Positions 2,241 to 29,744 of a stretch of 31,104 nucleotides of DNA are shown here, piece by piece. The stretch lies in the IMG/VR virus record IMGVR_UViG_3300035698_035404, positions 1-31,104 of that record. One strand, 5' to 3'. A program made the position numbers and the translations under genes. Source of the stretch: a virus. How positions within the stretch are numbered: the first letter of the stretch is position 1; each line of letters starts with the position of its first letter. A model generated the notes under the pieces. That model was given only the letters and a program-made list of their open reading frames with translations, ran no database searches and had not been told where the DNA came from.

Positions 2241-3011
2241 ATGAGTCTGCTTGAAAACATCCAATCGGGAAAACAGCCGATGCCGCCGCGAATCGAAATT
2301 TACGGTCAGGAGGGAATTGGAAAATCGAGTTGCGCGGCTTCCGCTCCGAACGCCGTTTTTATTCCGACTGAGGACGGTTTAAGCGAAATCGACTGCCGCA
2401 GTTTTCCGCTGGCTAGGAATTACAGCGATGTTGCCGGCGCGTTGACTGCGCTGTATCAAGAGGAACATGAATTCCAGACTGTTGTGATTGATTCTCTCGA
2501 CTGGCTGGAACGGTTGATTTTCGATGAAGTCTGCCGCGAATATGGCGTGCGTTCCATCGAAAAAGCTGATGGCGGTTATGCCCGTGGCTATGTTCATGCT
2601 TTGATCTACTGGCGAAAAGTTTTGAGTATGCTGGAAGTGTTGCGAAACGAAAAAGGCATGGCCTGTGTTTTGATCGCGCACTGCTGTGTGGAGAAATTTG
2701 ACGATCCGGAATCGGCGGCTTATGATCGTTACGCGCCGCGGTTGCACAAACACGCCAACGCGCTGATTTCCGAGTGGGTTGACGCGGTTTTGTTCGCGAC
2801 TCGCCGTTTTCGGACGCAGAAAGAGGATGCCGGGTTCGGGCGCGAACGCACCATCGCCGCGCCGGTCGGAGCCGATGGCGGAGAACGGATTATTCGAACA
2901 GTCGGCGGCCCCGCCTGCGTAGCAAAGAACCGTTTCAATCTGCCTGCGGAACTGCCGTTGTCGTGGGAGGCCTTTATGGCGGCGATGGCAAACGCCGGAG
3001 CGGAAGAATGA
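2241..3011 (+). CDS. Sak4-like RecA-fold ATPase (AAA_24)
   Basis: This 256-residue ATPase resembles the Sak4/AAA_24 group of phage recombination proteins, which cooperate with single-strand binding proteins in strand annealing. Walker A is GQEGIGKSS (22-30), followed by the family-typical PTEDGL and a Walker B TVVIDSLD (80-87). The C-terminal half has a RecA-like strand order with VLIAHC after the sensor region. The ATG at 2241 is preceded by GGGAGGA. The gene is followed by a 3008 ATG overlapping its stop codon (ATGA). Together with the RecE-like nuclease, DUF669 protein and RusA resolvase it makes a complete phage recombination set. Sak4 and other phage RecA-like ATPases are hard to separate without a profile search. 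Confidence 0.75.
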   Translation: MSLLENIQSGKQPMPPRIEIYGQEGIGKSSCAASAPNAVFIPTEDGLSEIDCRSFPLARNYSDVAGALTALYQEEHEFQTVVIDSLDWLERLIFDEVCREYGVRSIEKADGGYARGYVHALIYWRKVLSMLEVLRNEKGMACVLIAHCCVEKFDDPESAAYDRYAPRLHKHANALISEWVDAVLFATRRFRTQKEDAGFGRERTIAAPVGADGGERIIRTVGGPACVAKNRFNLPAELPLSWEAFMAAMANAGAEE

Positions 3012-3250
3012 TCCGCCGGAGGTGGAATATTTACCAGCGGAAGTCGCGGCAGGTGGTCAGCGTCATTTACTATTTTCGGAAGGATGCTCTTAATGATCTC
3101 TGGCACCTGAATGATTATTGCGGCAAGCGCAAGTACGCGATGCAACTGACGCGAATCGACATGGAAAGCGGCAGGATCGTCAGCCATTATCCGGATATTG
3201 AACTAAAGCAACTGCAAAACCAAACAAAGGAGGTGGTTAAAAATGAGTAA
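3008..3250 (+). CDS. Small basic hypothetical protein
   Basis: This is an 80-residue protein starting at the ATG that overlaps the stop codon of the ATPase gene by four bases (ATGA). An upstream in-frame start at 2963 would overlap the ATPase by 49 bases and has no good ribosome site, so I prefer 3008. The N-terminus is very basic (MIRRRWNIYQRKSRQ). It is followed by a mixed region containing FRKDALNDLWHLNDYCGK and an acidic, glutamine-rich end. I recognise no family. Its coupling to the ATPase and the strong ribosome site for the next small ORF inside its 3' end suggest it is translated as part of the operon. Confidence 0.55.
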   Translation: MIRRRWNIYQRKSRQVVSVIYYFRKDALNDLWHLNDYCGKRKYAMQLTRIDMESGRIVSHYPDIELKQLQNQTKEVVKNE

Positions 3251-3347
3251 ACGATGCGGCAAGCCCTGCGAGGTTTACTCGCGAAGGCGTATGCGGCTAT
3301 TTCAGGCCGGTTGCAAGCTGGAACGAAGGCAAACGAGAAGAATTTAG
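3243..3347 (+). CDS. 34-residue Cys-containing ORF
   Basis: An ATG at 3243 is preceded at good spacing by AAAGGAGGTGG, one of the strongest ribosome sites in the window. It opens a 34-codon frame ending in TAG at 3345-3347. The peptide begins MSKRCGKPCEVYSRRRM and is rich in arginine and lysine, with cysteines at 5, 9 and 24. It overlaps the previous gene by eight bases. A CxxxC pair plus strong basicity could indicate a small metal- or nucleic-acid-binding peptide, but no family is recognised. The evidence is mainly the ribosome site and position. Confidence 0.45.
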   Translation: MSKRCGKPCEVYSRRRMRLFQAGCKLERRQTRRI

Positions 3348-3398
3348 AGATAGAAAAGTTTTTAACGTCCCCAATCAACCCGAAGGAAAAAAGTAACT

Positions 3399-3857
3399 AT
3401 GGCAACGCTCAATTTTAACGCAAATGAAGTTGAACCGAATGTCGGAATCGAACCTATTCCCGCTGGCAAGTATGTCGCGGTCATTACCGAATCAGAACTC
3501 AAACCTACCAAATCAGGCAATGGGCAGTTTCTGGAACTGACTTTCGGGATTACTGAAGGTGAATACAAGGGCCGCAAGGTCTGGGCAAGGCTGAATCTTT
3601 TCAACCCAAACACCACAGCGGAAAAAATAGCCAGAGGCGACCTCTCAGCCATTTGCCGGGCTGTCAATGTAATGATGCCGAAGGATTCCGCCGATTTGCA
3701 CAACCTGCCGCTGGAAATCACGGTCAGATGCAAAAAACGCGCCGATTCCGATGAAATTACCAACGAAATCAAAGGCTATGTGACCAAGGACGCGTCGATC
3801 AATCCCGCTGCTCCGGCGGCACAGAAAAACACCTCAACGCCGCCATGGAAAAGATAA
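3399..3857 (+). CDS. DUF669 family protein, probable ssDNA-binding role
   Basis: The 152-residue product has the DUF669 pattern: an early IPAGKYVAVITESELKPTKS strand-turn, then NGQFLELTFGITEGEYKGRK and VWARLNLFNPN. The family is regularly found beside phage recombination ATPases. It is thought to be an OB-like single-stranded DNA binding or annealing accessory protein. The C-terminus is disordered, rich in Ala and Pro, and ends in STPPWKR, which recalls the protein-docking tails of SSB-like proteins. It lies downstream of the Sak4-like ATPase and upstream of RusA, which is the usual setting. The family call is good; biochemical function is inferred from the family. Confidence 0.75.
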   Translation: MATLNFNANEVEPNVGIEPIPAGKYVAVITESELKPTKSGNGQFLELTFGITEGEYKGRKVWARLNLFNPNTTAEKIARGDLSAICRAVNVMMPKDSADLHNLPLEITVRCKKRADSDEITNEIKGYVTKDASINPAAPAAQKNTSTPPWKR

Positions 3858-3887
3858 AAGTTACAACTTTAAACGGAGTTTTTTGTT

Positions 3888-4232
3888 TTGGAATTTGAAC
3901 TGCCATATCCGCCTTCGGTGAATCATTACTACCGGCATGTCGGGCGGGTACTGATCAGCCGTGAAGGGCGCAAATATCACGAACGGGTAGCGGCAATTGT
4001 CCGGGCAGGAAACTGGCGGACGCTGAAGTGTCCGGTCGAACTGACCATTGAGTTGTATCCGCCGGACAGGCGAATTCGCGATGCGGACAATTGCATAAAG
4101 CCTGTTCAGGATTCGCTTCAGAAGGCGGGAGTTTTCGTCAATGACAGTCAGGTAAAAGACCTTCATGTGTATATGCGCGAACCGTTAGCCGGAGGGCTTT
4201 GCCATGTGGAAATCAGAGAAAAAAAGAGGTAA
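3888..4232 (+). CDS. RusA-like Holliday junction resolvase
   Basis: This is a 114-residue RusA-fold endonuclease that would cleave branched recombination intermediates before packaging. The N-terminus LPYPPSVNHYYRHVGRVLIS is the conserved RusA opening. The catalytic acidic cluster is seen in RIRDADNCIKPVQDSL, followed by VFVNDSQVKDL, so the metal-binding aspartates and the conserved lysine are present. The start is a TTG at 3888, chosen because CGGAG lies about nine bases upstream and no ATG precedes the conserved N-terminus in frame. Length is normal for the family. It belongs to the same operon as the DUF669 gene, 30 bases downstream. Confidence 0.85.
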   Translation: MEFELPYPPSVNHYYRHVGRVLISREGRKYHERVAAIVRAGNWRTLKCPVELTIELYPPDRRIRDADNCIKPVQDSLQKAGVFVNDSQVKDLHVYMREPLAGGLCHVEIREKKR

Positions 4233-14326: not shown

Positions 14327-14926
14327 ATGTCTTCAACTGAAAACGCCATAAAGATAATTCGGAAACAAGGCGGAACTATCCGTACTGCATGCGCAATTAA
14401 ATCCGGAATACATCCACGCACCCTTTATGCTCTTTACGAGGCAGAAAAGGTTGAGAAAGTTTCTCGAGGGGTGTATCGCCTTGCGGCACTTCCGCCGACC
14501 TCTAATCCTGACCTTGAAATTGTCTCCTCGCGAATCCCGAATGGAGTGATATGCCTTATTTCAGCGCTTGCATTTCATGAAATCACTACGCAAATTCCCC
14601 ATGAAGTCAATGTAGCCCTTAAATATGGCTCGGAAACTCCTCGCATTGATTACCCTCCAGTCTCAATACATCGGTTTTCCGGGAAAGCTTTTGAGGGGGG
14701 AATAGAAGAACATAAAATCGATGGAATTGCTGTTCGCGTTTACAGTCCGGAAAAAACCATCGCCGACTGTTTTAAATTCAGAAATAAAATCGGCATGGAC
14801 GTTGTACTGGAAGCTCTGAAAATATATAAAAAAAGAAAGCGGGTCAAAATGGACGAACTGCTTAAATATGCGAAAATAGACCGGATGGAAAAAGTAATGA
14901 CTCCCTACCTTGAGGCCACGCTATGA
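14327..14926 (+). CDS. abiEi: AbiEi-type antitoxin (type IV TA)
   Basis: The 199-residue protein begins with a winged-helix segment, ENAIKIIRKQGGTIRTACAI, followed by SGIHPRTLYALYEAEKVEKV and SRGVYRLA, the AbiEi N-terminal pattern. The C-terminal part (LISALAFHEIT, VYSPEKTIADCFKFRNKI, ALKIYKKRKRV) is the AbiEi_4-like domain that neutralises the toxin. It overlaps the toxin gene by four bases (ATGA). AAGGG lies about ten bases before the ATG, and a promoter with an overlapping inverted repeat lies upstream, consistent with autoregulation. The composition is more A+T-rich than the flanking phage genes, suggesting acquisition as a cassette. Confidence 0.85.
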   Translation: MSSTENAIKIIRKQGGTIRTACAIKSGIHPRTLYALYEAEKVEKVSRGVYRLAALPPTSNPDLEIVSSRIPNGVICLISALAFHEITTQIPHEVNVALKYGSETPRIDYPPVSIHRFSGKAFEGGIEEHKIDGIAVRVYSPEKTIADCFKFRNKIGMDVVLEALKIYKKRKRVKMDELLKYAKIDRMEKVMTPYLEATL

Positions 14927-15831
14927 CCGTAAAAATTGTAAAGAACATGGCGGCATCCGTCAGGCAAAAACTTTTAAATAAAGCAAAAGCGGAAAACCGC
15001 CCGTTTAATGAACTGCTGCAATATTATATGATGGAACGTTTTCTCTATCGTTTAGGCAATTCTCCTTACGCGAATAATTTCATTTTGAAAGGAGGCCTGA
15101 TGCTCCGGGTCTGGAATGCTCCGGAAATTCGTCCCACAATGGACATTGACATGTTGGGGAAAATTGAAAACAGTACGGAAGCAATCATAAAAACGATGAA
15201 AAATATATGCGTCGTGAAAATGGAAATCCCTGACGGAGTTATCTTTGATGCTAAAAATATTACAGCGGAAGACATAACTGAAGACGCTGAATACCTGGGT
15301 GTAAGAATCAGGATTCCTGCCAGACTGGATACCGCGGTTTTGAAAGTTCAACTGGACATAGGTTTTGGCGATACTGTTTATCCCGAACCACAGAAATATT
15401 CAATGCCGGTTTTACTCGACTTGCCGGCTCCGGGGCTTCTCTGCTACAGTAAAGAGAGCAGCATTGCCGAGAAATTCGAAGCTATGATAAAACTTGGGAA
15501 GCTTAACAGCCGGATGAAGGATTTTTATGACATCTGGATGCTTGCAAGTCAATTTGATTTTAATGGCGCGCAATTTCGGGATGCGGTGTCTTGGACTTTT
15601 GAAAAACGCGAGGTTGCTATACCTGAAGAAATAATGGCTTTTTCTCCGGAATTCATAGAAGCCAAAAAGGTTCAATGGAACGCTTTTAGAAGAAAATTAA
15701 GACAAATCCATGTTCCTGAAAACATTGCCGATGTTATATTGGTTATCCAAAAGTTTTTAACTCCTGTCATTGAAAATCTACGCTCTGGTAAAAATATGCC
15801 GCAAAACTGGCATGCAGGTTCTTGGAAATAA
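14923..15831 (+). CDS. abiEii: AbiEii-type nucleotidyltransferase toxin
   Basis: This 302-residue protein is an AbiEii/MenT-like nucleotidyltransferase. The signature FILKGGLMLRVWN (53-65) is followed by RPTMDIDML (70-78), which holds the two metal-binding aspartates, and by the downstream lysine-aspartate motif RMKDFYDIWML near 195. AbiE systems cause abortive infection or slow growth when the antitoxin fails, through nucleotide transfer. On a phage this would most likely exclude competing phages from the lysogen or stabilise it. A factor-independent terminator follows at 15885, so the pair is a self-contained unit. All key residues are present, so it should be active. Confidence 0.87.
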   Translation: MTVKIVKNMAASVRQKLLNKAKAENRPFNELLQYYMMERFLYRLGNSPYANNFILKGGLMLRVWNAPEIRPTMDIDMLGKIENSTEAIIKTMKNICVVKMEIPDGVIFDAKNITAEDITEDAEYLGVRIRIPARLDTAVLKVQLDIGFGDTVYPEPQKYSMPVLLDLPAPGLLCYSKESSIAEKFEAMIKLGKLNSRMKDFYDIWMLASQFDFNGAQFRDAVSWTFEKREVAIPEEIMAFSPEFIEAKKVQWNAFRRKLRQIHVPENIADVILVIQKFLTPVIENLRSGKNMPQNWHAGSWK

Positions 15832-16246: not shown

Positions 16247-16348
16247 ATGCGGAAAGAAAAACAGGTGGACAATTCGCCACTACAGGAAGTCGCTGAAATT
16301 CTTGCCGCCGGCATCATCCGGATGAAAAAGAAGGGGAAACTGAAATGA
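16247..16348 (+). CDS. 33-residue ORF coupled to dcm
   Basis: An ATG at 16247 follows AAAGGAGG at ideal spacing. The peptide begins MRKEKQVDNSPLQEVAEILA, continues AGIIRMKKK and ends at TGA 16346-16348, overlapping the methyltransferase ATG (16345) as ATGA. The PLQEVAEILAAGIIR segment resembles short helices I recall from small phage and recombinase-associated ORFs of the EILAAGIIRL type. The strong ribosome site and translational coupling argue that it is expressed. Function is unknown; it may simply couple translation into dcm. Confidence 0.55.
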   Translation: MRKEKQVDNSPLQEVAEILAAGIIRMKKKGKLK

Positions 16349-17919
16349 TGCGGTACGGAAGCGTGTGCAGCGGCGTTGAAGCCGCGACTTTGGCGTGGAA
16401 GCCATTGGGTTGGCAACCGGCGTTTTTCGCGGAAGTCGAGCCGTTTCCGTGCGCGGTTCTGATGCAGAAATTGGGCGCGACCAAACCGTTGCGCCCGCTT
16501 GTTCCCGCTGAAACTCAAAATGAAAAAGAGAAAAAACAGCGTAAAAACTGGATAACGCAAATCGCCAAGTTCCCTGAAGGCGGTGAGATTCCGAATCTGG
16601 GAGACTTTACAAAGATAGAAGAGGATGATTATGATGGAGAAATCGACCTGCTCGTCGGAGGCTGCCCTTGCCAATCGTATTCTTGCGCGGGGCTTAGAAA
16701 GGGCCTTGACGACCCGCGGGGGGACCTCTCGCTTGAGTTTGCAAAACTGGCTCACAGAATACGTTCATGCTGGGTGGTATATGAAAATGTGCCGGGACTC
16801 GGCAGTCAGAACCATGGAGAAGCCTTCGCTGAAATACTATCAGCTTTGTGCGGATGGAAAGTTGAAGTTCCTGTTCTCAGAAGAAAGAAAAACGGGGACA
16901 TCGTCAGGGGCTGGAAGAATTCCGGCATCGTCACTCCCGCACCGGGATGTTACGGGCTGGCATGGCGAACTCTTGACGCTCAATTTGTGCGAGTGGACGG
17001 ATATCCGCGGGCAGTGCCTCAAAGACGAAGGCGTTTGTTCCTTGTCGGACATCTTGGAAACTGGGAACGTGCCGCGGCGGTACTTCTTGAGCCCGGCTGC
17101 CTGCGAGGGGATACTCCGCCGGAGCGCAAAACGCAAGAGGGAATTGCCCGCAATCTTACGGCAAGCACTGGAGGTGTTAGCGGAAAGGAACAGCAACACA
17201 CCTTCGTAGACGAACACGGCAGGCCACTGAATGCGTTATGTGTCGCCCACGGTCAGGGCAACGCGGAGGTGTGTGAGGGAAAATCCCCGACCTTAAACTG
17301 CAATCACGAAGCGCCCATAGTATACCGCGAATCCGGGCAGGGGTTCTGGCAACAGGATGAAGCTTCCGGCACGGTCAAGGTCAACGGGGTGGAACCGACC
17401 ACGGCCGTGTGTTACGATGCTCGCGGCAACGGTTCCGGCGATATCGCTCCCAACATTACCGGTGACCATGCCTCAAGGCCAAATGATTACATGCCGGTTG
17501 TACTTCAGAGGAAAAGTTACGGGATTTTGGAAAACATCATCAACCGCAAGGAGAAAAACGGCGGCAACGGGCTCGGTATTCAGGAGGAATTGCAGTACAC
17601 GTTGAACACAAGCGCTCCGCACGGCGTGTGCTGTTTCGTTAAGAATGACGCCGCGAAAGACTATTCTGAGAATGTCGCCATGACTTTGCGGAGCCGGGCG
17701 GAACACGCCGTCTCCTATCATTCGACTGTGAGGCGGCTGATGCCAGTCGAAACCGAAAGGTTAATGGGTTTTCCTGACAATCACACCCGGATCGAATGGA
17801 ACGGCAAACCGGCATCCGACTGCCCGGACACCCACCGCTACAAAGCCTGCGGCAATGCGTTCTGCGTAAATCCAGCCAGATGGCTAGGCATGAGAATTCA
17901 AAACTTGGAGGATTTTTAA
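16345..17919 (+). CDS. dcm: C5 cytosine DNA methyltransferase
   Basis: This 524-residue enzyme transfers a methyl group to cytosine C5. Motif I is MRYGSVCSGVEAATLAW and motif IV contains the catalytic cysteine in GGCPCQSYSCAG (PCQ 108-110). ENV (147-149) is motif VI, and AVPQRRRRLFLVGHLG is motif VIII. The target-recognition region follows, and VETERLMGFPDNHTRI with YKACGNAFCVNPARW forms motifs IX-X. An unusual charged insertion (about 52-98) separates motif III from IV. The ATG at 16345 has AAGGGG eight bases upstream. With the ParB-methyltransferase it gives the phage two modification activities and no visible endonuclease, consistent with evasion of host restriction. A second long ORF overlaps it in another frame. 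Confidence 0.9.
   Translation: MMRYGSVCSGVEAATLAWKPLGWQPAFFAEVEPFPCAVLMQKLGATKPLRPLVPAETQNEKEKKQRKNWITQIAKFPEGGEIPNLGDFTKIEEDDYDGEIDLLVGGCPCQSYSCAGLRKGLDDPRGDLSLEFAKLAHRIRSCWVVYENVPGLGSQNHGEAFAEILSALCGWKVEVPVLRRKKNGDIVRGWKNSGIVTPAPGCYGLAWRTLDAQFVRVDGYPRAVPQRRRRLFLVGHLGNWERAAAVLLEPGCLRGDTPPERKTQEGIARNLTASTGGVSGKEQQHTFVDEHGRPLNALCVAHGQGNAEVCEGKSPTLNCNHEAPIVYRESGQGFWQQDEASGTVKVNGVEPTTAVCYDARGNGSGDIAPNITGDHASRPNDYMPVVLQRKSYGILENIINRKEKNGGNGLGIQEELQYTLNTSAPHGVCCFVKNDAAKDYSENVAMTLRSRAEHAVSYHSTVRRLMPVETERLMGFPDNHTRIEWNGKPASDCPDTHRYKACGNAFCVNPARWLGMRIQNLEDF
16631..17209 (+). CDS. Overprinted ORF within dcm
   Basis: In the +1 frame relative to dcm, a 192-codon ORF starts at ATG 16631, six bases after AGAAGAGG; a same-frame ATG at 16625 abuts that site. 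The protein reads MMEKSTCSSEAALANRILAR and includes GWHGELLTLNLCEWTD, then VCSLSDILETGNVPRRYFLS, then ACEGILRRSAKRKRELP. That C-terminal pattern is one I recall as a conserved small phage protein often seen at methyltransferase loci, so it does not look like a random shadow. The dcm frame is also fully conserved across it. I cannot tell whether it is translated; a frame-specific conservation test would decide. Confidence 0.45.
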   Translation: MMEKSTCSSEAALANRILARGLERALTTRGGTSRLSLQNWLTEYVHAGWYMKMCRDSAVRTMEKPSLKYYQLCADGKLKFLFSEERKTGTSSGAGRIPASSLPHRDVTGWHGELLTLNLCEWTDIRGQCLKDEGVCSLSDILETGNVPRRYFLSPAACEGILRRSAKRKRELPAILRQALEVLAERNSNTPS

Positions 17920-21600: not shown

Positions 21601-22209
21601 ATGCTTGCAAAATATGTGCAAAGAGGTCATGACATCGATTACGTTCCCGAAGTCGACGTGGCGGCGGGAGATGTGGTAATTATTGGCGATATTGTCGGGA
21701 TAGCTAAGCTCGATATCAGGGCCGGGACGCTTGGCGCTCTGGCGCTGGTCGGGGTATTTGATATTCCGAAAGCGACGGGAGAAAGTACAGCGATTGCCGT
21801 TGGAACCATAGTGTTCTGGGATACTGAAAACAAACAGGTAACTACAACCGGCGGGGAAAATAAATACCTCGGCAAGACGATCACCGCAGTCGGGGACAAT
21901 GATTCTTACGCAAGGATAATTATCAATGTTTCCCGTGACGTGCCGATTAGCGCGGCGGCAGCGATTGCCGATCCCGAGGCTAACGCCGAGGATATCGACG
22001 ACCAGTCCGGTGGCACGGCCAGCGGCACCCATCAGTTGGCGGCGGTTGCCGATACTTCCGCATCCGATCAGTCGGGGGAGATAAATAATAATTTCGCCAC
22101 CATCGGGGCGGAGTACAACACCCTCAAGACGGATGTGGAGACTAACAACGGCAAGCTTGACACCGTGTTGGCGGCGCTGCGAACGCTGGGTTTGGTCGCT
22201 ACTGAATAA
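21601..22209 (+). CDS. Head decoration protein (DUF2190-like)
   Basis: This 202-residue protein has a beta-rich N-terminal half (MLAKYVQRGHDIDYVPEVDV, VAAGDVVIIGDIVGIAKLDI, GVFDIPKATGESTAI, KYLGKTITAVGDNDS) typical of DUF2190 capsid decoration proteins. The C-terminal part is low-complexity, then helical (EYNTLKTDVETNNGKLDTVL), which could form a coiled-coil. GGAGG lies seven bases before the ATG. Its place directly after the capsid gene supports the role. It shares one base with the next gene (TAATG), so the two are translationally coupled. Confidence 0.75.
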   Translation: MLAKYVQRGHDIDYVPEVDVAAGDVVIIGDIVGIAKLDIRAGTLGALALVGVFDIPKATGESTAIAVGTIVFWDTENKQVTTTGGENKYLGKTITAVGDNDSYARIIINVSRDVPISAAAAIADPEANAEDIDDQSGGTASGTHQLAAVADTSASDQSGEINNNFATIGAEYNTLKTDVETNNGKLDTVLAALRTLGLVATE

Positions 22210-22577
22210 TGGACATGCTGAAAAACGCGATTGCCTGGCTGGAATCTCAACGGAAAAGTCACCTGACCGTGCCGGTAATTTACCGGCGCGGCGGTGATGC
22301 CGCCGAAGTTCCGGCTACCATTGGTAGGACCGTGTTCAAAGTTACCGATGATTACGGGCGATTTCAGTATATCGAGAGCCGGGATTACCTCATAAGCACC
22401 GCCGATCTGGCGCTTAACGGAACTCCCGTTTTTCCCCGGCAGGGCGATGAAATCATCGAGGACGGTTTCGTTTATGAGGTCATGGCTTCCAACAATGAAC
22501 CCGAGTGGAGGTATTCCGACAGTTACCGGCAAACTTTGCGAATACACACAAAATTTATAGGAGAAACAGATGCCTAA
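22209..22577 (+). CDS. Head-tail joining or head completion protein
   Basis: The 122-residue protein contains TVPVIYRRGGDAAEVPATIG, FQYIESRDYLIS, PVFPRQGDEIIEDGFVYEVM and WRYSDSYRQTLRIHTKFIG. I recognise that layout as a conserved small head-completion type protein encoded after capsid and decoration genes. Beta-strands dominate, which suits a stopper or connector. It begins in the stop codon of the previous gene and overlaps the next by eight bases. No enzymatic motif is present. The assignment rests on position and remembered pattern. Confidence 0.6.
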   Translation: MDMLKNAIAWLESQRKSHLTVPVIYRRGGDAAEVPATIGRTVFKVTDDYGRFQYIESRDYLISTADLALNGTPVFPRQGDEIIEDGFVYEVMASNNEPEWRYSDSYRQTLRIHTKFIGETDA

Positions 22578-22812
22578 CGGAAATGACAACCTTGATCTGC
22601 GCGATGTCTGGAACGCGGTAAACGAGTCGCGGCGCGAACTTGCGGAGATGAAGGGCATGTTGACGATTCATTTTTCTGACCGCAATATTCATCACAGTCC
22701 GCTCTGTCATGCCGCGGAGGATATGCGCAAGACCATGCTGTCGGCGGCTGGAGCGGCAATTCTGGCGTTACTTGCTGCTATCGGTTCAATCCTTGCAACG
22801 GTATTGAGGTGA
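22570..22812 (+). CDS. Small coiled-coil membrane protein (XhlA-like layout)
   Basis: This 80-residue protein has a polar coiled-coil half (DLRDVWNAVNESRRELAEMK) and one hydrophobic helix at the C-terminus (AAGAAILALLAAIGSILATV). That layout resembles XhlA-type and holin-associated proteins, but similar small proteins also occur within head-tail operons. The 3' end is important: a second, diverged copy of its last codons lies at 23463-23504, beyond the antisense cassette. The cassette therefore appears to have inserted at the end of this gene. No partner lysis gene is visible in the window. Confidence 0.6.
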   Translation: MPNGNDNLDLRDVWNAVNESRRELAEMKGMLTIHFSDRNIHHSPLCHAAEDMRKTMLSAAGAAILALLAAIGSILATVLR

Positions 22813-22839
22813 ATAGATAAAAATAAGTAATTGAGGATA

Positions 22840-23379
22840 TTACTCGAGGATCAAATTGTTTATTTCACTTTCAGACAATATGTATTTGGGAATGTAATTC
22901 ATAGAACTACTTAAAAACTTAGTTTGATGCGTCATCATTGCTCCGGGCAATTTTTCCTGATTTTTTTGTTCAATATATCGTTTGGTTGAGGATAATGGGC
23001 TTACGTTATCTAAAGTTCTGAAAAGAGAAATTTCAATAATGTAATTTCCGCCAATAGCAACCCAACAGTGCCCATCAAATGGCTGTGATCTAGAAAAAAC
23101 ACTTGAGTGATTCGTGCTGTCATCGCCAAATATCCTGTGGTTATTAATTTCCAGGCACCCGGCAACCATATAAACTGGGAGTGACAATTTATTTCTAATT
23201 TCTTTCCATAGTATAGCATTTAAGTGTACGCAATAATAGGGATTATAAGGCAATCGTGAAAGAGCGTTGCGCATACAGTTTTGTACGAGTTGCTTATCAT
23301 TTTCTGATAGGCAATAATCCCGAAAGTTATTGGCATCAGATTTAGAAAAGGTTTGCTCTATAATATCTATGGTGTCCAT
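22840..23379 (-). CDS. Antisense cassette gene, transglutaminase/papain-like fold candidate
   Basis: This 179-residue protein is on the minus strand inside the head operon and is clearly A+T-rich. AAGGAGAG lies six bases before its ATG. C50 opens a helix-strand unit (YYCVHLNAILWKEIRNKLSL, then PVYMVAGCLEI), and H104 stands in FDGHCWVAIGGNYIIEISLF with E116. A cysteine, then an HxWV-x-G motif, then an acidic residue is the transglutaminase-like order Cys-His-Asp/Glu. That suggests a cysteine peptidase or acyltransferase, but this is inference from spacing alone. It has no phage structural neighbour in its orientation, so it behaves as a moron, perhaps with a role in lysogeny or defence. Confidence 0.5.
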   Translation of the reverse strand: MDTIDIIEQTFSKSDANNFRDYCLSENDKQLVQNCMRNALSRLPYNPYYCVHLNAILWKEIRNKLSLPVYMVAGCLEINNHRIFGDDSTNHSSVFSRSQPFDGHCWVAIGGNYIIEISLFRTLDNVSPLSSTKRYIEQKNQEKLPGAMMTHQTKFLSSSMNYIPKYILSESEINNLILE

Positions 23380-23444
23380 TTTTACTCTCCTTTAAATTCT
23401 ATAAACAATAGCATGAAAAAGAAAATTAACAATGAGATTACCTG

Positions 23445-23504
23445 ATGAATAGGTTGACTAAACTTGCCGCTATCGGTTCAATCTTAATTAGCATCCTGAG
23501 GTGA
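23445..23504 (+). pseudogene. Duplicated 3' end of the 22570 gene
   Basis: A 19-codon ORF reads MNRLTKLAAIGSILISILR and ends TGA. The intact gene ends LLAAIGSILATVLR at 22812. The DNA of the two ends shares CTTGC-GCTATCGGTTCAATC and TGAGGTGAAT around a diverged middle. The remnant therefore comes from a related but different allele. Its position just beyond the antisense cassette indicates that the insertion duplicated or imported the gene end. Confidence 0.65.
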
Positions 23505-23507
23505 ATT

Positions 23508-23930
23508 ATGCCGTTACTTATGGATATAGCCAACGCCGTGGCTGCGGAACTTGACAATGCGGAAAATCTTTCATTGGAATTCACCGCGGAAGTGAACCTC
23601 AAGCCAGTGTTTGAATTGCGGGACTTGAAGGAACTGAAAGTGACGGTAGTGCCAAAATCGCTGAAGTTTTCCGGAGCAACCCGCCAGCAATCAGGCCGGG
23701 AAGTGCAAATTGACATCGGTGTACAGCGCAAAACGGCCGCTCCTGAGCAGCTTGCCGCACTGCTACAATTGGTTGAGGAAATCGCGGGACTGTTCGATCG
23801 AAAACGCCTGACGGAATACCCGAAAGCAGTGTGCATCGGAATCGGAAATGATCCGGTTTACGACCCCGAACACCTCAGGCAAATGCGACAGTTTACCAGC
23901 GTAATAACACTTACGTTCAAGGTGGTCTGA
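23508..23930 (+). CDS. Tail terminator-like or neck protein
   Basis: The 140-residue protein has an N-terminal helix (MPLLMDIANAVAAELDNAEN), then beta-strands (TAEVNLKPVFELRDLKELKV, TVVPKSLKFSG, EVQIDIGVQRKTAA) and a final YDPEHLRQMRQFTSVITLTF. Small alpha/beta proteins of this length at this site are often tail terminators or head-tail connectors. No motif fixes the choice. TGAGGTGAATT precedes the ATG, where the GAGGTG is shared with the stop region of the duplicated gene end. It lies two bases before the next gene, with which it is likely co-translated. Confidence 0.55.
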   Translation: MPLLMDIANAVAAELDNAENLSLEFTAEVNLKPVFELRDLKELKVTVVPKSLKFSGATRQQSGREVQIDIGVQRKTAAPEQLAALLQLVEEIAGLFDRKRLTEYPKAVCIGIGNDPVYDPEHLRQMRQFTSVITLTFKVV

Positions 23931-25505: not shown

Positions 25506-25516
25506 ACTTGAAGCAA

Positions 25517-25978
25517 CTAATGATTATTTATTTTTATCGTCTTATGGACAAACGGCGTTCCTTTAACTGGGGAAATTGAAAAAGCCCAAATTTTCCCTGT
25601 TTGAGGAGCTTTGTCATCAAATTTGAATTTGTTCCAAAATTGAAATCTGATTTTTCCGAAACTGGCAGAGGGAGTATTTGATATCTTTCCTGAAAACATA
25701 TTTTTCAGGAATGGCTTTAGACGTTTTGCATCAGTTAAATAGATACTGGTTATAATTTTTTCCCCGTTAATTTCTGCGTATTCAAGTCTTTCAACTTTTC
25801 CAGCCCAGATGCTTGGAGGACCAAAGAAGTTTTTTTTATTGTCTTGGCAATATTTAACTTGCTTTAAATACCACGATGAAGATTCAAATTTCTCTAAATC
25901 TATACGCTCGCAACCTGTTATTAGATAAACACAAATAAAGCTCAGCAAAATAAACTGTTTGGACGGTAATATCTTCAT
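25517..25978 (-). CDS. Antisense cassette lipoprotein
   Basis: The 153-residue protein starts MKILPSKQFILLSFICVYLI and then TGC, with a lipobox at C23, so it is an exported lipoprotein anchored to a membrane. GGAGG lies five bases before the ATG at 25978; an in-frame ATG at 26014 has no such site and would add residues before the signal. The mature part has no recognised domain (YCQDNKKNFFGPPSIWAGKV, SAFSISPVKG-like end). It is A+T-rich and lies antisense between the tail chaperone and the tape measure. That suggests a lysogenic-conversion moron, perhaps a superinfection-exclusion lipoprotein as in other phages, but this function is only an analogy. Confidence 0.65.
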   Translation of the reverse strand: MKILPSKQFILLSFICVYLITGCERIDLEKFESSSWYLKQVKYCQDNKKNFFGPPSIWAGKVERLEYAEINGEKIITSIYLTDAKRLKPFLKNMFSGKISNTPSASFGKIRFQFWNKFKFDDKAPQTGKIWAFSISPVKGTPFVHKTIKINNH

Positions 25979-25984
25979 TTTTCC

Positions 25985-26019
25985 TCCAATAGGTATTGGA
26001 CCGATATCATGCATTTATA
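25985..26019 (-). promoter_or_regulatory. Promoter-like box and palindrome upstream of lipoprotein gene
   Basis: On the minus strand TATAAA (26019-26014) is a fair -10, though the -35 is poor. Between it and the start codon lies a perfect palindrome, TCCAAT-AGGT-ATTGGA (25985-26000), whose 3' end abuts the GGAGG. It could be an operator or a 5' leader hairpin affecting translation. Confidence 0.35.
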
Positions 26020-26081
26020 CCTAATCTAACAGTAGTTCTCTTAAAAACAAGATATACAGCTATCAAAGAGGATCAAAAATA

Positions 26082-28415: not shown

Positions 28416-28423
28416 GGAAATAA

Positions 28424-28453
28424 ATGGAAACAAAAATTGCTTTGAAAATATAG
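28424..28453 (+). pseudogene. Remnant 5' end of the 28914 tail gene
   Basis: Nine bases after the tape measure stop codon, a ten-codon frame begins ATGGAAACAAAAATT and stops at TAG (METKIALKI). The real tail gene starts ATGGAAACAAGAATA at 28914. A GAGG lies six bases before the remnant ATG. It looks like the old start of the downstream gene, left behind when the antisense membrane-protein cassette was inserted. Confidence 0.6.
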
Positions 28454-28457
28454 AAAA

Positions 28458-28835
28458 TTATTTGTCTCTATTTTTATAGGTTTTCATTTTCTTAGCTGTA
28501 TCAGCTGCTAATTCATCGTAATTACCCTTAATTTCATAGGTAACTGGCATTTTGTCACGCAATATTTTCAATTCTTTAATGACAAATTTTGTTTCTTTAT
28601 TTTCAAGTTGGTTAATTGTTGAATCCAGCAATTTTGCCGTGGCACTGCTATACCAAATATTGTAATTCAAACGAACTAATTGAGCAGCTAAAAATGCAAC
28701 GCCAAAACAAGATAATATTGCTAATATCCCCAAAGTACATCGTACGGATTTTTTAGAATTTTTAATTTCTGAAACAAGCCATGCAATTGGCATTATTGCC
28801 ACAATTAATAATAAGAGAAAAACAAGAATACTCAT
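28458..28835 (-). CDS. Antisense cassette two-helix membrane protein
   Basis: The 125-residue protein has two hydrophobic segments, MSILVFLLLLIVAIMPIAWL and LGILAILSCFGVAFLAAQLV, followed by a soluble part rich in lysine and glutamate (LLDSTINQLENKETKFVIKE). AGGAGG lies four bases before the ATG, and a TATAAT is upstream on the minus strand. The gene is A+T-rich and antisense within the tail operon. No family is recognised. Membrane location and cassette setting suggest a superinfection-exclusion or lysogenic-conversion factor, but a holin-like or other role cannot be excluded. Confidence 0.6.
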   Translation of the reverse strand: MSILVFLLLLIVAIMPIAWLVSEIKNSKKSVRCTLGILAILSCFGVAFLAAQLVRLNYNIWYSSATAKLLDSTINQLENKETKFVIKELKILRDKMPVTYEIKGNYDELAADTAKKMKTYKNRDK

Positions 28836-28861
28836 ATATCCTCCTGCGTTTAAATAAATTA

Positions 28862-28867
28862 ATTATA
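28862..28867 (-). promoter_or_regulatory. TATAAT box for membrane-protein cassette
   Basis: On the minus strand TATAAT is a perfect -10 match, about 27 bases before the start codon. No good -35 hexamer is found at 16-18 bases. It suggests that the cassette carries its own promoter rather than relying on the phage operon. Confidence 0.4.
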
Positions 28868-28913
28868 TAGAAAAGTAACATTGAAAATAATACTTTTCAA
28901 GTGGAAGACACTT

Positions 28914-29744
28914 ATGGAAACAAGAATAGAACAGGGCTTTTTTGACCGCAGCCAGACGGTCGACGCTTACGGCATTCATACGGATGCCGAGGTGCCGTAT
29001 TTTATTTTTGACGCCGAGGATGAGGATGCGGTTCTGGAGTTCGCGCACGCGAATATTCCGGACTCCTTCAATAATATGGCGCTTGAAGGTATTGAGATTG
29101 ACGAACGGATAAATGCGACAGTTTTTAAAGTTGTCGCAAAATACAAGATTTCAACTTATTCTCAGCTTTCTTCCGGAGATGGCGAGGAGCCGGAACCGGT
29201 CTACACGTTCGACACCGGAGGTGGCGCACAGCATCTGACGCAGTCGATAATGACGGTCGGAAAATATCCTGCCGACGCGCCGGACTATGCCGGGGCAATC
29301 GGCTATGACGGGGAGAACGTCAATGGAATCGATATTGTCCAGCCGGTGTCGAATTTCGCGGAAACCCACTATCTGGAAGACCGGAAGTTCACCACCGCCT
29401 ATAAGAAAGGCGTGGCTAAAATTACCGGGACTATGAACAACGATTCCTTCCGGGGCTATGAAACCGGAGAGGTGTTGTTCTTGGGCGCGAGCGGCACGAA
29501 AAAGGGCGACGATTCAAACTCTTACTGGGAAGTGACCTATAAGTTCGCTGTCTCGTTCAATCGCAAAAACTTCAATGTCGGCGACATCACCGTAAGCGAA
29601 AAATACGGCTGGGACTACATGTGGATCAGGTACGCCGACGAAGTCGACGACGAGAAAAAATCGTTGGTTAAAAAACCCGTCGCTGTCTATACCGAGCGGG
29701 TCTACATGGTCGCGAATTTTTCAGCACTGGGAATAGGTAGATGA
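28914..29744 (+). CDS. Tail structural protein
   Basis: This 276-residue protein starts at ATG 28914 (METRIEQGFFDRSQTVDAYG). An in-frame ATG at 28881 would begin with an unlikely MKIILFKWKTL segment lying in the cassette edge. It is acidic and beta-rich, with repeated DG, TF and YE turns (YTFDTGGGAQHLTQSIMTVG, NGIDIVQPVSNFAETHYLED, YWEVTYKFAVSFNRKNFNVG). No family is confidently recognised. Its place directly after the tape measure suggests a distal tail or tail-hub component. It overlaps the following gene by four bases (ATGA). Confidence 0.6.
   Translation: METRIEQGFFDRSQTVDAYGIHTDAEVPYFIFDAEDEDAVLEFAHANIPDSFNNMALEGIEIDERINATVFKVVAKYKISTYSQLSSGDGEEPEPVYTFDTGGGAQHLTQSIMTVGKYPADAPDYAGAIGYDGENVNGIDIVQPVSNFAETHYLEDRKFTTAYKKGVAKITGTMNNDSFRGYETGEVLFLGASGTKKGDDSNSYWEVTYKFAVSFNRKNFNVGDITVSEKYGWDYMWIRYADEVDDEKKSLVKKPVAVYTERVYMVANFSALGIGR

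Follow-up and report, generated by a model that had tools for sequence, protein, structure and literature searches.

The stretch of DNA analysed here (the window) is virus record IMGVR_UViG_3300035698_035404, 31,104 nt in length. Its late genes follow an order that is kept in relatives: capsid-protease, cement protein, head-tail joining protein, g80, nxt, a tail-completion-like gene, tail tube, two chaperone-type genes, tape measure and further tail genes. The names of the two chaperone-type genes and of the tape measure are presumed from their position. g80 encodes a protein of 80 amino acids with a hydrophobic C-terminus, which in the window ends in LLAAIGSILATVLR before the stop codon. No named family was found for it in Pfam, PHROGs or NCBIfam, and the alleles of 11 relatives are 65-91% identical. 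In the window, 695 nt with a GC content of about 0.34 separate g80 from nxt, and this interval holds one antisense gene and a second g80 end. The features of the region are as follows.

22209..22577, plus strand: head-tail joining protein gene, the upstream neighbour of g80 (Pfam Phage_H_T_join_3, E 1.5e-40)
22570..22812, plus strand: g80, complete copy (alleles in 11 relatives)
22770..22791, plus strand: left copy of a 22-nt direct repeat, inside the g80 end (21/22 identical to 23462-23483)
22813..23461: cassette 1, inserted AT-rich DNA (GC 0.336, against 0.531 and 0.513 at its sides)
22840..23379, minus strand: 179-aa gene with a probable transglutaminase-like fold (C50, H104, E116), assigned from its Shine-Dalgarno sequence, bacterial homologues and a structure model
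23462..23504, plus strand: remnant of the end of a second g80 allele, in frame and with its stop codon (profile match, 22-mer test, register test)
23499..23505, plus strand: GAGGTGA, likely ribosome-binding site of nxt, inside the remnant (GAGGT lies upstream of nxt in relatives)
23508..23930, plus strand: nxt, a 140-aa gene of the head-to-tail region and conserved neighbour of g80 in relatives

The original prediction described an antisense gene lying between two copies of the g80 end. That gene is present, is preceded by a strong Shine-Dalgarno sequence (AAAGGAGAG) and has homologues in bacteria. The relatives with an uninterrupted locus that the prediction had proposed to look for were recovered by scanning IMG/VR with the joining protein, nxt, the tail gene and an alignment of g80. 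At all 19 loci measured, only 2-10 nt separate g80 from nxt and nothing is inserted between them; two pairs among these loci are identical in g80 (L005/L042 and L055/L056), and seven more loci with g80 gave no distance, as their nxt start could not be placed. Cassette 1 itself was found in none of the relatives. It is a single-gene insert of 0.65 kb with neither an integrase gene nor a transposase, and the inverted repeats found in it are not at its ends. DNA similarity across it gives no clear change of closest relative.

The second g80 end is equally real. The last codons of g80 had been said to recur at 23463-23504, and an in-frame second end does occupy 23462-23504. It translates as LAAIGSILISILR followed by a stop, and its g80-type ending, which closes on ISILR, is AAIGSILISILR. 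Both copies contain a 22-nt core, ACTTGC[T/C]GCTATCGGTTCAATC, that is 21/22 identical, after which 10 of 18 positions differ. As a control, the 22-mer from the g80 end was compared with 570 further, mutually overlapping 695-nt stretches from either strand of the window, where its best match was 16/22. A profile HMM was built from the g80 proteins of the 11 relatives, the window's own excluded, and searched against six-frame segments of the window. g80 itself ranked first and the remnant second, with E 0.0079 on the whole profile and 5e-4 on the last 17 columns alone; the next-best segment had E 2.1 on the whole profile. Since this window-free profile retrieves it, the remnant derives from the end of g80. 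The prediction would have been refuted if the stretch beginning at 23445 had come from an unrelated gene; by profile, 23445-23504 belongs to the g80 family.

The two copies in the window agree at 29 of 42 nt, the ends of g80 from different phages at 25-38 of 42, and the remnant and the relatives' g80 ends at 24-29 of 42. The differences between the window copies cluster outside the core (1/22 vs 10/18, Fisher P = 0.0007). Such uneven divergence is better explained by two alleles that were joined close to a common core than by an old copy decaying evenly. The test does not decide the matter, however, since constraint on the protein also keeps the core alike in different phages. The proposal that the downstream copy came from another phage allele is thus well supported as regards allele-level divergence, but no phage carrying the donor allele was recovered: a degenerate DNA pattern for the ISILR ending gave 0 matches in viral contigs, and the phages collection held no DNA similar to the region. 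The same figures bear on a tandem duplication of the g80 end within one genome, with decay of one copy and later entry of the cassette between them. This would place the copies in frame and on the same strand, as observed. It is nevertheless unlikely, given that the differences are unevenly spread, that those of the remnant match between-phage differences in both size and place, and that none of the relatives' loci measured has a doubled g80 end without the cassette.

The surroundings of the remnant indicate which copy is in its original place. Beside it, the junction with nxt reads TGA-ATT-ATG (TGAATTATG), the same as in relatives L005, L007, L008 and L015. This is the native junction; therefore, the remnant has kept its native position, and of the two copies it is the complete g80 that is joined to the cassette. 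The two repeats are also in register. Exchange between them would give an intact g80 of 80 codons followed by ATT-ATG, as in relatives, and the cassette could therefore leave without a scar.

Integrative elements bring a substitute gene end when they insert at tRNA genes, and a site-specific integration at an att-like core in the 3′ end of g80, with the cassette supplying a substitute end, would likewise account for the near-identical core with its abrupt 3′ divergence, the restored gene end and the repeats in register. It is improbable here: a cassette of this size has no integrase, the core is kept by protein constraint in cassette-free phages as well, and a mirror case further along the window (cassette 3, below) doubles a gene start with another sequence.

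One property of the remnant may explain why it was retained. GAGGT is found just 5′ of nxt at 22 of 25 listed starts, and it is there in L002 and L003 although an unrelated 71-aa gene stands in the position of g80. That gene (L002 5372-5578; L003 about 2115-2329) is of coiled-coil/membrane type and also ends in GAGGTGA before nxt. As GAGGT precedes nxt even where g80 is absent, the last codons of the preceding gene are likely to serve as the ribosome-binding site of nxt, and in the window this site falls inside the remnant. Judged from these sequences, an insert that leaves both g80 and nxt working would have to double the edge or supply another site. Such a reason for a doubled edge was not found in print in a limited search of open papers. 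The likely nxt site within the remnant, together with a second cassette of the same kind, goes beyond the original prediction. That the remnant is instead a working short gene or leader of 19 codons from the ATG at 23445 (MNRLTKLAAIGSILISILR), resembling g80 through shared function, is very unlikely: it has an open frame, at whose end the likely nxt ribosome-binding site lies, but no clear Shine-Dalgarno sequence precedes 23445, and the synonymous positions of the core are also common to both copies (21/22 nt), which points to descent at the DNA level.

Cassette 1 is, then, probably a moron that entered at a gene edge when two alleles recombined there. It lies between genes that are adjacent in relatives, its base composition is unlike that of the host phage, and its direct repeat derives from a flanking gene and is single-copy in relatives. 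An accessory gene, oriented against the late genes, would have been inserted between two morphogenesis genes when two phage genomes carrying different g80 alleles recombined, whether homologously or illegitimately. One parent would have given the left part, with the complete g80 and cassette 1, and the other the right part, with the last 13-14 codons of its own g80 running into nxt. The recombinant may have been retained since g80 stays intact and GAGGTGA is kept for nxt. The 179-aa gene is predicted to be expressed during lysogeny from its own strand and possibly protects the host. The original reading of the duplicated end as a footprint of how the cassette came in agrees with the empty relatives and the homology of the remnant.

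Duplications of this kind have been described before. In its passages on these phages, PMC3029335 (Pope et al. 2011) compares Island3 with Brujita: genes 67/68 of Island3 include an inserted gene that shares its 3′ end sequence with the gene before it, Brujita has a single recombinant copy, and recombination between short sequences is proposed. As in cassette 1, the inserted gene is missing from a relative and gene-end sequence (60 bp in Island3) is common to two 3′ ends. However, the inserted gene of Island3, as described there, is collinear and the repeated end is its own C-terminus, whereas in cassette 1 the gene is on the opposite strand and the remnant is a separate piece in front of nxt. 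Another example from that report is LRRHood, where a 1.35-kb immunity insertion of four genes is bounded by a 29-bp direct repeat from a gene end that is single-copy in relatives. Both cases have extra DNA within a gene-end direct repeat and accessory, possibly protective cargo; they differ in that 29-bp repeats surround four genes in LRRHood, while cassette 1 has one gene and a 21/22 repeat with a diverged tail. Morons in the same account usually have a flanking promoter and terminator. Scans of cassette 1 found neither above chance: there were no terminators, a scan by consensus alone gave 3 promoter-like sites against 3.5 expected by chance, and a scan of 23340-23520 gave none. The duplication at cassette 1 is thus of the kind published for Island3 and LRRHood, a known route by which phages trade genes, rather than a system of a new kind. 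To that kind, the window adds a doubled gene start, antisense cargo and the proposed ribosome-binding-site reason. In our judgement, junctions of mosaicism are rarely seen with both parental edges visible, and two cassettes here keep them. This suggests a rule: a doubled edge is to be expected where a cassette sits at a gene pair with overlapping signals.

The protein encoded by cassette 1 is related to unnamed proteins of bacteria. Homologues 26-30% identical over 91% are found on three Novosphingobium plasmids. A first genome scan found none, and a later scan with an alignment found homologues in 14 sphingomonad contigs. Among Pseudomonadota, 4 of 398 genomes have homologues, one of these being the centre Novosphingobium and one a weak 25-residue match. 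No relatives were found in viral contigs with either the single sequence or the alignment, and the phages collection gave only a weak partial match. By sequence, there was no meaningful match to solved structures and no family above cut-off; Transglut_core3 reached 11.7 bits against a cut-off of 26, and PADLOC anti-phage defence families gave 0 hits at E <= 1. His 104, within the motif GHxW, is kept in 14/14 sequences of the sphingomonad alignment, and most have an acidic residue at 116. Cys 50 is present in the window and 5 of the 13 other sequences, as well as in L066 and L067, and is absent from the remaining 8; both Cys and GHxW are conserved in the most distant members.

A structure model of the protein has a pLDDT of 84. 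Its fold matches are weak, the best with VIA-align being 2hly (Z 7.0), 9crn (6.8) and 5mhn (6.1), none at Z >= 8. Transglutaminases, N-acetyltransferases and cysteine enzymes like them take the top places, and the tool warns that values in this range, up to Z 7.0, may reflect a common arrangement. Neither Foldseek nor the BFVD fold search gave a match at E <= 0.001. Among the leading rows is 4dmo, described with a Cys-His-Glu triad. In the predicted fold, the protein would resemble transglutaminase-like and arylamine N-acetyltransferase-like enzymes (PDB 2hly, 9crn, 4dmo), with the same residue order of a Cys at the start of a helix and a His and an acidic residue on the following strands. Unlike them, it matches no sequence family above cut-off, and some homologues have lost the Cys. 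On the model, a transglutaminase-like Cys-His-Asp/Glu fold is quite likely and enzyme activity is possible. A protective role is suggested by analogy, because other slots hold toxin-antitoxin-type and similar cassettes. The gene is a lead to an undescribed protein family in bacteria and, here, in a phage.

Two further cassettes lie downstream in the same window.

25506..26081: cassette 2, AT-rich, with an antisense ORF at 25517-26014 (lipoprotein-like)
28416..28438, plus strand: left remnant at cassette 3, native spacer and duplicated start of the next gene, ATGGAAACAAAAATTG (16/16 identical to the gene start in L043)
28458..28835, minus strand: gene of cassette 3, 125-aa membrane-type (Shine-Dalgarno sequence AGGAGG; no family above cut-off)
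28914..29744, plus strand: complete downstream gene at cassette 3, another allele (groups with L052 and L057)

Cassette 3 (28416-28913, GC 0.29, antisense) is the mirror arrangement of cassette 1, with a duplicated gene start instead of a gene end. The start copy follows directly after the tape-measure gene, and the null maximum for this match was 13/16 in 580 stretches. The duplicated motif, ATGGAAACAA[A/G]AAT, occurs at 28424 and 28914. A tree of nine downstream-gene proteins places that of the window with L052 and L057 against six without an insert (99/98 support); L044, with only 54 aa in its contig, and L040, whose start was not found, were left out. Both L052 and L057 carry antisense toxin-antitoxin pairs in the same slot between the tape measure and the next gene. 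The gene start of L044 resembles that of L046, yet a toxin-antitoxin pair is inserted in L044; the link between the cassette and the lineage of the gene is therefore not strict. No gene-edge repeat was found at the edges of cassette 2. An internal start at 25980 in its ORF would give a lipoprotein-like product (ITGC).

The original prediction also asked whether similar repeats flank cassettes elsewhere. One such case occurs in the window (28424/28914), but 14 of 16 inserts have no convincing doubled edge, and the duplicated edge is therefore not a general rule. The scan covered two edges of each of the 16 inserts, with scores compared against 200 shuffles. Scores of 29 in L005 and L042 (0/200 shuffles; the match needs a gap), 25 in L047 (3/200) and 25 in L043 (9/200) were read as chance, because these matches lie in antirepressor coding sequence and start from g80 codon 5, not from the edge. 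L061 scored 22 (4/200) with an 11-nt match. An apparent gene-start copy in the tape-measure/next-gene slot of L037 and L044 was rejected, as it codes for the C-terminus of an antitoxin.

Related phages fill their late-gene slots with accessory cassettes, often toxin-antitoxin pairs. It is conceivable, if rather doubtful, that late-gene edges act as reusable docking points that leave no scar, where short in-register repeats of gene ends or starts allow exchange, only edge-doubled recombinants survive owing to overlap with ribosome-binding sites, and the slots rotate antisense genes for lysogen protection. Were this so, the transglutaminase-like protein would be a new member of the rotating protection set.

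Antisense pairs in the late region of relatives include Gp49/HTH_3 at the tape-measure/next-gene slot, HicA/HicB and DUF4160/DUF2442. The Gp49 (HigB-type)/HTH pairs of that slot are found in three contigs (L037/L052 5367-6003, L057 11565-12213 and, by likeness, L044 6414-7124). L004, L005, L007, L008, L011, L015 and L037 carry one or two antirepressor genes of P22_AR_N type on the plus strand between the joining protein gene and g80, within the cluster of head genes, where antirepressors are unexpected; three of the proteins were assigned by scan and the others by likeness. Between the tail-completion and tail-tube genes, L058 has at 2485-4212 a presumed reverse transcriptase gene of group II intron type. 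The window itself has an AT-rich island that encodes, at 14327-15831, the type IV toxin-antitoxin pair AbiEi/AbiEii, followed by a C5 cytosine methylase at 16345-17919.
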